From positions 1 through 50,671 of the forward strand of contig JAAZJL010000093.1 in the NCBI GenBank assembly GCA_012800355.1: DNA of 50,671 nucleotides, in the 5' to 3' direction. The stretch comes from Erysipelotrichia bacterium. GTDB taxonomy: Bacteria > Bacillota_I > Bacilli_A > Erysipelotrichales > Erysipelotrichaceae. Of the stretch, positions 17,586 through 50,671 are shown one piece after another (position 1 is the first letter of the stretch; the number at the start of each line of letters is the position of its first letter). The position numbers and the translations under genes are program-made. The notes beneath the pieces were generated by a model. That model did no database searches, was not told the origin of the DNA, and saw only the letters and a program-made list of their open reading frames with translations.

Positions 17586-19400
17586 ATGAACTTAGATAAG
17601 CTTAAAAGTTTTTATGATGGGTATGGAATGCAAAGTTATGAAATCTTTGGCGCTCATCTCCATGAAAATGGAACAATCTTTAGAGTATATGCTCCAAATG
17701 CTAAAAGTGTAAGAATAATTGGTGACTTCAATTATTGGAATGAGCACGAAACTTTTATGTTTAAATCGGACTTGGGTTTTTGGGAGATCTTTTTAGAAAA
17801 TGTTGGCGAATATGCCAGATATAAATATGTTATTGAAGACAAAAAAGGTAATTTAGTCCAAAAAGCTGACCCATATGGCTTTTATAATGAACTCAGACCT
17901 GGTTTTTGCAGCAAAGTAGTTTCTTTGGAATATCCTTGGCAAGACCACCAGTGGATGGCAAACAGAGACAAATGTTTTGATAAACCACTTAATATTTATG
18001 AAGTTCATTTAGGAGGATTTAAACTCAACTCTGAAGGCAAATGGCTAAATTATTATGAGATGATTGATGTGATAATTCCTTATGTTGTCGAAATGGGATA
18101 TACCCATATTGAACTTTTACCACTTAACGAACATTCTTTAGACCAGTCATGGGGATATCAACAATATGGTTACCATTCAATTACTTCTAGATATGGTTCA
18201 CCATATCAGTTAATGATGTTTATTGATGCTTGTCATCAAGCAAATATCGGAGTTATTATGGATGTCGTGTTGGTTCATTTCTTAAAAGATACTTTTGGAC
18301 TGGCAAAATTTGATGGAACAGCGCTTTATGAATCAAGTAATAAAAAATATAACGAGAGTCAATGGGGAACATACTACTTTGATTTTTCTAAAAATATCGT
18401 TAAAAGTTTCTTACTAAGTAGTGTTTGTTTATGGTTGGATAAGTATCATATTGATGGTGTCAGAGTAGATGCTGTAAGCAATCTTATTTATTACCATGGC
18501 AACAAACAACTTGGCGAAAATAAAGAAGCAATAAGTTTCATTAAGCGTTTTAACTATCATATTCACGATAACTATCCAAGTGTAATTACAATAGCCGAAG
18601 ATAGCAGTGATTATCCGAAAGTTACTGGAAATGAGGTTGAAGGATTAGGTTTTGATTATAAATGGGATTTAGGCTGGATGAATGATACCTTGAAGTATTA
18701 TGAAATGGATCCAGAATATCGCAAATATAATCATACTTTAATTAATTTCTCCATGGCATATTTTTACTCAGAAAGATTTATCTGTCCATTTTCTCACGAT
18801 GAAGTTGTACATTCCAAAAAAACAATAGTTGATAAAATGTGGGGTAGTTATGAAGATAAATTTAAACAATGTAGAAACTTGATGGTTTATATGTATACTC
18901 ATCCTGGGAAAAAATTAAATTTTATGGGCAATGAAATTGCTTCATTTAGAGAGTTTGATGAATTAAAAGAGTTAGATTGGTTTATCTTGCAATATCCAAT
19001 TCACGATAGTTTTAAAAGATTGTGCCGAGATTTAAATATGATTTATAAATCTCATCCTGCTTTCTATAAATATGATTATGACTATAAAGGATTTAAATGG
19101 ATTGATGCTGATAACAACGAGCAAAGAATCTATAGTTATGTTAGATTTGATGACGAAAAATGTTATGTAGTAGTATTAAATATGGCTCCTATTGCCTATG
19201 AAGATTTTGAAATAGGAGTGCCAACTTATGGATTTTATACTGAAATTATGAATTCAGAAAAAGATATTTATGGTGGATGCAATATGTGTAATTTCAAAAA
19301 AATTCAAGCTAGAAAAGGTAATATACACAACATGAACTACAAATTAAATATCAGAGTCGCGCCTTATGCAGCCATAATTTTTGAAGCAAAATTACGATAA
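17586..19400 (+). CDS. glgB: 1,4-alpha-glucan branching enzyme
   Basis: GlgB cuts alpha-1,4 chains and rejoins them as alpha-1,6 branches in glycogen, in the cytosol. The N-terminal CBM48 (about residues 20-105, with the VRIIGDFNYWNEHE strand) is followed by a GH13 barrel carrying the four conserved regions: DVVLVHF (226-232), GVRVDAV with nucleophile D295, TIAEDS with acid E338, and FSHDEVVH with the transition-state Asp D405. At 604 residues it is shorter than E. coli GlgB because the extra N-terminal module is absent, as in many Firmicutes. It is the first gene of the glycogen cluster, with glgP 12 bases downstream. GGAGGG supports ATG 17586. Confidence 0.95.
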   Translation: MNLDKLKSFYDGYGMQSYEIFGAHLHENGTIFRVYAPNAKSVRIIGDFNYWNEHETFMFKSDLGFWEIFLENVGEYARYKYVIEDKKGNLVQKADPYGFYNELRPGFCSKVVSLEYPWQDHQWMANRDKCFDKPLNIYEVHLGGFKLNSEGKWLNYYEMIDVIIPYVVEMGYTHIELLPLNEHSLDQSWGYQQYGYHSITSRYGSPYQLMMFIDACHQANIGVIMDVVLVHFLKDTFGLAKFDGTALYESSNKKYNESQWGTYYFDFSKNIVKSFLLSSVCLWLDKYHIDGVRVDAVSNLIYYHGNKQLGENKEAISFIKRFNYHIHDNYPSVITIAEDSSDYPKVTGNEVEGLGFDYKWDLGWMNDTLKYYEMDPEYRKYNHTLINFSMAYFYSERFICPFSHDEVVHSKKTIVDKMWGSYEDKFKQCRNLMVYMYTHPGKKLNFMGNEIASFREFDELKELDWFILQYPIHDSFKRLCRDLNMIYKSHPAFYKYDYDYKGFKWIDADNNEQRIYSYVRFDDEKCYVVVLNMAPIAYEDFEIGVPTYGFYTEIMNSEKDIYGGCNMCNFKKIQARKGNIHNMNYKLNIRVAPYAAIIFEAKLR

Positions 19401-48829: not shown

Positions 48830-49044
48830 AAGATTGAAAATAAAGAGTTTTCCAATGACCGTTATGGAAACGCATTTCTAATATTAAAAGAAAGAACATT
48901 TATGATATAAAGATTTTATGTTTCTTAATTAATAAAATGTAAACGATTACATTTTTTGTTGCTTTACTAAAAACAATAGTTTATAATAACTAAAGAGTAA
49001 GATGAAAAATAATATCTTACATATTTTTTCGAAGGGAGAAAACA
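48830..49044 (+). promoter_or_regulatory. Control region of the binding-protein gene: cre-like site, promoter, leader hairpin
   Basis: This 215-base gap holds no gene. TGTAAACGATTACA (48938-48951) matches the CcpA cre consensus TGWAANCGNTNWCA at every position and sits in a longer palindrome with 9-base arms (48934-48955). TTGCTT (48959-48964), a 17-base spacer and TATAAT (48982-48987) form the promoter, giving a start near 48994. The transcript would begin with a hairpin GTAAGAT/ATCTTAC (48997-49003 and 49014-49020) followed by ATATTTTTT, then the GAAGGGAG ribosome binding site. A LacI-family MalR-like repressor could also use the palindrome. No terminator for the upstream gene is evident. 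Confidence 0.75.
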
Positions 49045-50586
49045 ATGAAAAAATTATTATTAATTGCTCTTACAGCATGTATGTTATTAGTCTTCACTGG
49101 TTGTAATAAACCAAAAGAAGAAGAATATAAGATTACTGTATGGGTAAGTGAATCCGAAGGGGTTAAAGAATTGACAGAACAGCAAATTGCTAGATTCTGT
49201 GAAGAAAATGGCGTAAAAATTAACGCTACAGTAGAAGGTATTTCAGAAGCTGATTCAGCTACTATAATGATTACTTCAGTTGAAGATGGCGCAGATCTCT
49301 TCAGTTTCTCACAAGACCAATTGGCACGCTTAGTTCAAGCTGGAGCTTTACAGGTTTTAGGTGAGGCAGCAAGTGCAACAGTTACTGAATTAAATGATGA
49401 AATTTCAGTAAAAGCTGCTACAGTTAATGGACAATTATATTGTTATCCATTAACAAGTGACAATGGATACTTTATGTATTATGACAAGAGTGTTGTTAAA
49501 GAAGAACACTTAGATTCTTTAGAAGATATCATCGCTGATTGTGAAAAGGCAGGTAAAATGTTCTCTTTCCATTTAGATGATAACGCATGGTACACAGCAT
49601 CATTCTTCTTTGCTACTGGTGCTGTAAGCGAATGGCAAACTGATGAGTCAGGTGCGTTTATTTCAGTTAATGACACATTCAATTCAGAAGCTGGAATTAT
49701 CGCATTAAAAGGTATGCAGAAGTTACTAAAATCTAAAGTTTACAACTCATCTTCAAATGCTGCTGACTTCTCAGCTGCAATTCCAAGTGCTGTATTAATT
49801 TCTGGCACATGGTCAGTAAGTGATGTAAAAGCGGCATTAGGTGATAATTTTGGCGCAACAGATTTACCTTCATTTACAGTTGATGGAAAAACTTATCATT
49901 TAGGTTCATTCTCAGGAAACAAGTTAATGGGTGTTAAACCTCAAACTGATGCTAACAAAGCAGCATTGTTACAAAAATTAGCTTTATACCTAACAAATGA
50001 AAAATGTCAAGTTGAAAGATTTGAGTTAAAAGGATGGGGTCCATCTAACTTAGCTGCTCAACAATTAGATAGCGTTAAATCTGATGTAGCATTAGCGGCA
50101 TTAAATGCTCAAAATGCTTACGCAACTCCACAAGGACAAATCCATGGTTCATGGTGGAGCATTGTTAATGTGCTACCAATAAGCGCAAAAACAGCTACTA
50201 CTGATGGCGAATTACAAGCAGCTTTAGATGCTTACAAACAAGCAATTGATGCACTATTTGCATTAGATACTAGTGGATTAATCTTCGTTGGACAATGGAA
50301 CAATTGGGACAATACTGATGATGCATTTAGAATGACTAAAGAAAATGAAACATTCACAATCACAGTAACTGTTACTGAAGATTTACCATATTTTGGCGGA
50401 AGAATTGTTACTCCAGGTGAGTGGGAAAATGACAAAGGTGTTACAGCTGTAACTGTTGGTACTGAATTAATTAAACCAGCTGACCCAGAAGAAAATAAAG
50501 ATAATAACATTATCTTCTTAGAACCTGGTACTTATGAAGTAAGTTACAATGCAACTACTGGCGAAATCGCTATCGAAAAGAAATAA
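49045..50586 (+). CDS. Maltodextrin-type ABC solute-binding lipoprotein with C-terminal starch-binding-like domain
   Basis: The product has 513 residues. A lipoprotein signal with lipobox FTGC (C20) anchors it outside the membrane. Residues about 28-400 form a family 1 (MalE-like) solute-binding fold (YKITVWVSESEGVKELTEQQIARFCEEN; DNGYFMYYDKS; GKTYHLGSFSGNKLMGV). After a helix (about 385-408), residues 410-513 form an extra beta domain with VGQWNNWD (W418, W421) and PGTYEVSYNATTGEIAI, resembling starch-binding modules (CBM48/SusE-F-like). Normal MalE proteins end near residue 400-420, so this tail is an addition. It probably captures alpha-glucans. A stem-loop and the start of a further gene follow, likely permeases. 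Confidence 0.85.
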   Translation: MKKLLLIALTACMLLVFTGCNKPKEEEYKITVWVSESEGVKELTEQQIARFCEENGVKINATVEGISEADSATIMITSVEDGADLFSFSQDQLARLVQAGALQVLGEAASATVTELNDEISVKAATVNGQLYCYPLTSDNGYFMYYDKSVVKEEHLDSLEDIIADCEKAGKMFSFHLDDNAWYTASFFFATGAVSEWQTDESGAFISVNDTFNSEAGIIALKGMQKLLKSKVYNSSSNAADFSAAIPSAVLISGTWSVSDVKAALGDNFGATDLPSFTVDGKTYHLGSFSGNKLMGVKPQTDANKAALLQKLALYLTNEKCQVERFELKGWGPSNLAAQQLDSVKSDVALAALNAQNAYATPQGQIHGSWWSIVNVLPISAKTATTDGELQAALDAYKQAIDALFALDTSGLIFVGQWNNWDNTDDAFRMTKENETFTITVTVTEDLPYFGGRIVTPGEWENDKGVTAVTVGTELIKPADPEENKDNNIIFLEPGTYEVSYNATTGEIAIEKK

Positions 50587-50607: not shown

Positions 50608-50654
50608 CAAAGCAGGTTGGGGTATTGTCTTCCAACCTGCTTGTTTATTATTTT
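50608..50654 (+). terminator. Strong stem-loop after the binding-protein gene
   Basis: AAGCAGGTTGG (50610-50620) pairs with CCAACCTGCTT (50632-50642) over 11 base pairs, extendable by G-T pairs into the loop. The tail TTGTTTATTATTTT is T-rich but interrupted. It may be a leaky terminator or an mRNA-stabilising hairpin that keeps the binding protein in excess over downstream permeases. Confidence 0.75.
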
Positions 50655-50666
50655 GGGGAGGTTTGT

Positions 50667-50671
50667 ATGAG
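50667..50671 (+). CDS. Start of next gene, cut by window edge (probably ABC permease)
   Basis: GGGGAGG (50655-50661) is followed after five bases by ATG and two more bases before the window ends. Only the start codon is visible. A sugar ABC permease is expected from position but cannot be confirmed. Confidence 0.45.

Follow-up and report, generated by a model that had tools for sequence, protein, structure and literature searches.

The frame at 49045-50586 of the window, that is, of the whole 50,671-nucleotide stretch of Erysipelotrichia DNA analysed here, encodes a lipoprotein in which a solute-binding core of the maltodextrin type is joined to a C-terminal domain resembling the starch-binding modules of SusE and SusF. 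We consider that this surface lipoprotein probably serves as both receptor and docking point for α-glucan uptake, with glucan binding by the tail predicted. We favour this reading because the tail folds independently, because its top structural matches are starch-binding proteins and starch-active enzymes and because counterparts of the AMPK contact residues are conserved in it. The core, too, is nearest to maltodextrin-type binders and the genes sit in an importer and starch-enzyme context with pullulanase neighbours, while every close homologue found by core-only searches is extended at its C terminus and the tail has been exchanged at least five times.

Domain layout of the lipoprotein

The gene (49045-50586, plus strand) is complete, starts with ATG and specifies 513 amino acids. 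Its lipoprotein signal peptide (49045-49104, plus) ends in a lipobox-like FTGC whose Cys20, invariant in a nine-row alignment, is the predicted lipidation site. The solute-binding core follows as residues 21-406 (49105-50262, plus) and the C-terminal module as residues 407-513 (50263-50583, plus). Within the core, SBP_bac_8 (PF13416) spans residues 47-352 with an e-value of 3.6e-27 and 96.3 bits, well above the gathering cut-off of 27.

The model of the mature full-length protein is of high confidence (pLDDT 93.1, pTM 0.82). Its core matches the maltotriose-binding protein EUR_01830 of Eubacterium (Agathobacter) rectale (PDB 4ua8) with a VIA Z of 42.5 at 25% identity and Lactobacillus casei MalE1 with a VIA Z of 42.3; indeed, the top 14 structural matches (Z 42.5-35.6) are all binders of maltotriose, maltodextrin or cyclodextrin. 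As modelled, the core therefore has the maltodextrin-type (CUT1) binding-protein fold, and maltooligosaccharide binding is predicted for it. Structural similarity to maltodextrin-binding proteins extends as far as mature residue ~386, equivalent to residue ~406, and the 4ua8 chain (383 residues modelled) lacks any counterpart of the C-terminal module.

The initial annotation had noted that the frame runs some 104 residues beyond a MalE-like fold, and this is borne out by a separate domain of about 107 residues after residue ~406. The sequence details it gave are also correct: VGQWNNWD, placed near residue 415, occupies residues 415-422, the protein ends in PGTYEVSYNATTGEI as quoted, and GDFNYWN is found at residue 46 of the window's own GlgB (17586-19400). 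The domain layout is thus confirmed. An origin through frame fusion or assembly error might be suspected from the end of the contig only 85 bases downstream of the gene, yet full-length orthologues with the same architecture are present in three other genomes of the genus (98, 88 and 86% identity) and no close homologue found lacks a tail. Such an artefact is accordingly rejected as having a negligible chance of being true.

Two candidate regulatory elements flank the gene. Upstream, the near-palindrome ATGTAAACGATTACAT (48937-48952), a putative LacI/CcpA (cre)-type operator, fits the pattern WTGNAANCGNWNNCAW, which matches the window twice, once on each strand of this single site, against 0.21 expected by chance. 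With a stricter core pattern, the site is also seen in the corresponding position of three related genomes, and the loci examined contain no other occurrence. Downstream, a stem-loop of 13 pairs with a T-rich 3' side (50610-50642, plus) lies between the gene and that of a permease, and the stem is also present in three related genomes. By analogy, it may act as an attenuator or 3'-end stabiliser, raising the level of the binding protein over that of the permease.

Fold and contact residues of the tail

An AlphaFold2 model of the tail, built with 47 related tails, is again confident (pLDDT 95.6, pTM 0.87). The best solved match is SusF (4fe9, residues 275-383), with a Z of 10.0 over 96 aligned residues at 2.6 Å, followed by the X25 module of pullulanase (2wan, Z 9.2), SusE (4fem and 4fch, 8.9 and 8.8) and X25-2 of Ruminococcus bromii Sca5 (7rpy, 8.6). 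The N-terminal domain of the alkaline amylase Amy703 (Z 6.8) and AMPK CBM48 (5.1 and 4.6) match less well. The Z values are middling, and middling values are common, but the leading structures are all starch-related proteins and rank above unrelated entries at Z 4-5. Foldseek alone found nothing under an e-value of 1e-3 for the tail, its first three entries being 2wan, 7rpy and 4fe9.

The initial annotation had proposed a SusE/SusF- or CBM48-like β domain, and had regarded two outcomes as damaging to the idea: that the tail would prove part of the binding-protein core, or that it would match a non-carbohydrate domain. In the models the tail folds independently of the core, so that its assignment to the core is rejected, and SusF, pullulanase X25, SusE and Sca5 X25-2 head the structure search. 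Together with the conserved CBM48 contact residues described below, these fold matches support the proposal.

Sequence profiles are less forthcoming. The window tail is unlisted at e ≤ 0.1 by both SusF_SusE (PF16411, gathering cut-off 27.5 bits) and X25_BaPul_like (PF22058, cut-off 27 bits), and scores 14.8 bits with CBM53 (PF16760, cut-off 27.6) and 13.8 bits with AMPK1_CBM/CBM48 (PF16561, cut-off 26.8). It thus lies under every Pfam gathering cut-off, which counts against the α-glucan docking reading, and we reject its assignment to any named CBM family. Among related tails of the same kind, which we call type A, SusF_SusE is listed at e ≤ 0.1 in 30 of 47, with a best value of 1.7e-6, and X25_BaPul_like appears weakly in 10 of 47, its likeness to the tail being one of fold (Z 9.2 and 8.6). 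Searching PDB sequences with the tail profiles (hmmsearch) gave nothing significant.

Each of the structural relatives differs from the tail in its setting. SusE and SusF of Bacteroides thetaiotaomicron, for which a starch-binding role is proposed, share the fold (Z 8.8-10.0), but in that diderm they are proteins in their own right, containing two and three modules (PMC9112005), whereas here one module is fused to the receptor of an ABC importer. Like the window tail, the X25 modules found in R. bromii Sca5/Sas20 and in Bacillus acidopullulyticus pullulanase (7rpy, 2wan) belong to monoderm starch systems, but their carriers are scaffoldins, a dockerin protein or an enzyme rather than a solute-binding protein. 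CBM48 of AMPK β has a similar sandwich fold at lower similarity, but differs in length and in its loops.

We aligned the AMPK β1 CBM (the sequence used is identical to PDB 6e4t_B over 90 residues) with 59 type-A tails and 33 units of a second tail type, type B, using MAFFT. The AMPK residues W100, K126, W133 and N150, which we take to be those that contact glycogen, align with Trp421 (50305-50307, plus), Arg453 (50401-50403, plus), Trp460 (50422-50424, plus) and Asn487, the last being the first of the pair Asn487-Asn488 (50503-50508, plus) that corresponds to AMPK Asn150-Asn151. The set of W, K/R, W and N expected of CBM48-type glycogen contacts is therefore present in the window tail, and its four positions, along with the second Asn, are invariant in 59/59 type-A tails. 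In type-B units the Arg453 position is Lys in 31/33, while Trp460 and the second Asn are matched in 33/33. Their first Trp is invariant in 27 aligned units, although it is placed a few columns off AMPK W100.

Distribution and exchange of the tails

A scan with core patterns of one genome per GTDB species gave at least 595 stretches with at least 532 confirmed relatives. The 80 of these that were examined come mostly from gut or rumen MAGs and belong to Erysipelotrichaceae, Lachnospiraceae, Oscillospiraceae, Acholeplasmatales and unclassified Clostridia or Bacilli. The initial annotation had supposed that a tailed importer protein would be unusual in a monoderm; in fact such proteins are widespread among the Erysipelotrichaceae, Lachnospiraceae and further Clostridia of the gut.

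Because ranking that scan's hits by the full-length query gives tailed members an advantage, the search was repeated with the core only. In the window's family (245 genomes), the 26 matches with at least 49% identity all come from frames of 478 residues or longer, and every one of them whose DNA was read bears a tail of type A or type B; the matches with 41% identity or less are all in frames of 253-447 residues. A phylum-wide sample gave a similar pattern, with a 45% member tailed (582-residue frame) and a 40% member in a frame of 433 residues. Among the intact homologues read, therefore, the tail is present in every one with a core identity of at least 45% and in none at 41% or below. The plasmids searched contained only distant solute-binding proteins, under 60% identical and none covering 80% of the query.

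Some members carry the pair of domains in larger settings. At locus L228 (G592:C211, 5508-14495, minus) a core with a type-A tail is part of a secreted protein of 2995 residues with nine Big_2 repeats, and two PnrA/Bmp-type domains and one more SBP_bac_8 domain lie further downstream, placing several solute-binding domains in one chain. At L229 (G598:C144, 2989-5442, minus; 817 residues) the core and type-A tail are joined to cell-wall-binding CWB2 repeats, so that the pair also occurs on a wall anchor. The 757-residue protein of L147 (265-2538, plus) has a core, a type-B tail and a C-terminal extension of about 250 residues with internal repeats.

The tails read comprise 61 of type A, the kind seen in the window, and 25 of type B, which are SusF/X25-like, single or tandem, and reach an e-value of 2.5e-5 with SusF_SusE, just under the cut-off. 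In a quick tree of the cores, made without bootstrap and having several long branches, the tailed proteins lie on one side of a branch with support 100, and the type-A label needs eight changes, of which at least five are on well-supported branches (shuffled mean 31). On this core tree, the tail was gained once and its type was then exchanged at least five times. Individual loci illustrate the process: L067 and L112 are 88% identical in the core but 33% in the tail, while L067 and L060 are 78% identical in the core and 88% in the tail. One starch-binding-like module has thus been replaced by an unlike one that keeps equivalent contact residues.

These observations bear on whether the tail binds glucan, for which affinity is predicted. 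The fold by itself is no proof of binding, and the tail might instead be a structural or protein-docking module, attaching for example to MalF, the amylase lipoprotein or the cell wall, in which glycan binding has been lost. Its confinement to one kind of protein in the genomes searched would fit such a role: the type-A profile matches one protein per genome in 13/196 genomes of the family, in frames of 509-538 residues, the size of the window protein, and the type-B profile matched only solute-binding proteins of the window kind (11/16 genomes). Nonetheless, four contact positions are invariant, and the swap for an unlike tail (25-35% identical) with equivalent residues is hard to reconcile with a fixed protein interface. 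We therefore regard loss of binding in favour of docking to a protein as unlikely.

The weakest step of the proposed mechanism is the binding of glucan by one module alone. According to PMC9112005, side chains of Trp, Lys, Glu and Asn hold the ligand in Sca5 X25-2, while single X25 modules of Sca5 fail to bind maltooligosaccharides alone, two modules being needed, in contrast to the modules of SusE and SusF, which do bind. The behaviour of the single Sca5 modules counts against the α-glucan docking reading and in favour of a docking module for proteins, and, by analogy, a lone tail might bind with low affinity.

Operon context and the substrate

In relatives, the gene for the binding protein is followed by those for MalF-like and MalG-like permeases, an MsmK-like ATPase, a GH13 amylase lipoprotein and GH77. 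In the window, the MalF-like permease gene is represented by its first bases, ATGAG (50667-50671, plus), where it is cut by the contig end; the related genome G006 continues as ATGAGTGAATACAAAG..., the permease start, and a longer stretch of the gene is readable in G001. Because contig C47 of the window's genome stops at the permease start and C58 opens at the ATPase start, malF and malG fall in the assembly gap between the two, which counts against the α-glucan docking reading. The MsmK-type ATPase, GH13 lipoprotein and GH77 genes of this genome are ordered as in G001:C20, where the binding protein opens the transporter block.

The operons of relatives often include further genes: a GH53 without and a GH53 with a lipoprotein signal, pullulanase genes, which adjoin several members, or a protein of about 600 residues. 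The paired GH53 genes stand beside an apparent α-glucan importer at G001:C20, at G004:C24 and at many further loci, among them L033, L043, L057 and L062. The ~600-residue protein, conserved at L062 (6703-8502), L057 (6689-8485) and L106 (6044-7846), is possibly an unclassified enzyme; that of L062 has no Pfam (e ≤ 0.01), NCBIfam (e ≤ 0.001) or convincing PDB sequence match.

GH53 raises the question of whether the substrate is galactan. The Bacillus ganSPQAB genes form a galactan operon, and its GanS resembles the window system in combining a solute-binding protein with MalF/MalG-type permeases. By this comparison, the core would be a receptor for β-1,4-galactooligosaccharides and the tail would bind galactan. 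A GH53 gene adjoins that of the binding protein in G001, G004, G010 and many other loci, and GH53 is found near 49 of 85 members, which counts against α-glucan docking, as does the fact that the NCBIfam model for GanS (NF053763) outscores that for MalE (NF007011), at 82 versus 67.7 bits, both being far below their curated cut-offs of 700 and 291. The GanS model has 420 positions and its match stops at residue 403, ahead of the tail.

Against a galactan substrate, GH13 is no less common than GH53 as a neighbour (53 versus 49 of 85), and GH42 and GH2 occur only once or twice each among 74 sampled unclassified neighbours. GH53 was not found in the window's genome, G000 (80.67% complete), or in its sister G006 (83%). 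Both are incomplete, but the syntenic GH53 sites are closed up with intact junctions: the binding protein directly follows a GNAT-domain gene in both genomes, and on C58 the GH13 and GH77 genes adjoin each other, whereas in G001 and G004 they are separated by GH53. The binding protein, GH13 and GH77 remain. The nearest structures of the tail, moreover, are starch-related. Galactan thus seems to us an improbable substrate, and an α-glucan is favoured as the better reading, since GH53 is missing with its sites closed up and the nearest structures of the core are binders of maltotriose, maltodextrin and cyclodextrin.

With an α-glucan as substrate, chains of starch, glycogen or long maltodextrins would be retained on the cell surface by the tail and cut there by the neighbouring GH13 amylase lipoprotein. 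The core would capture the maltooligosaccharides released and deliver them to MalFG/MsmK, for processing inside by GH77. Keeping polymer and product near one lipid anchor may lower diffusion loss, which a monoderm has no periplasm to limit.

An open-access literature search (titles, abstracts and term counts) surfaced no solute-binding protein fused to a starch-binding module, which is weak evidence of novelty. The parts are already known; what appears to be new is that they are fused in one importer receptor, that this fusion is so broadly distributed and that its tails have been repeatedly exchanged. More broadly, we give about even chances to the idea that these proteins form a class of starch receptors, made of a single polypeptide and widespread among monoderm gut bacteria, each an importer binding protein with an exchangeable α-glucan-binding module, doing in one chain the job of SusE/SusF and a separate receptor in Bacteroides. 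The repeated swap between two types would then mean that glucan docking itself is the selected trait. A receptor with its own polymer-binding module offers a simple, testable answer to how gut Firmicutes, having no periplasm, keep starch fragments from their neighbours. Sequence libraries currently label such proteins merely as extracellular solute-binding proteins; found in hundreds of gut genomes, the fusion would be a useful marker of starch scavengers.
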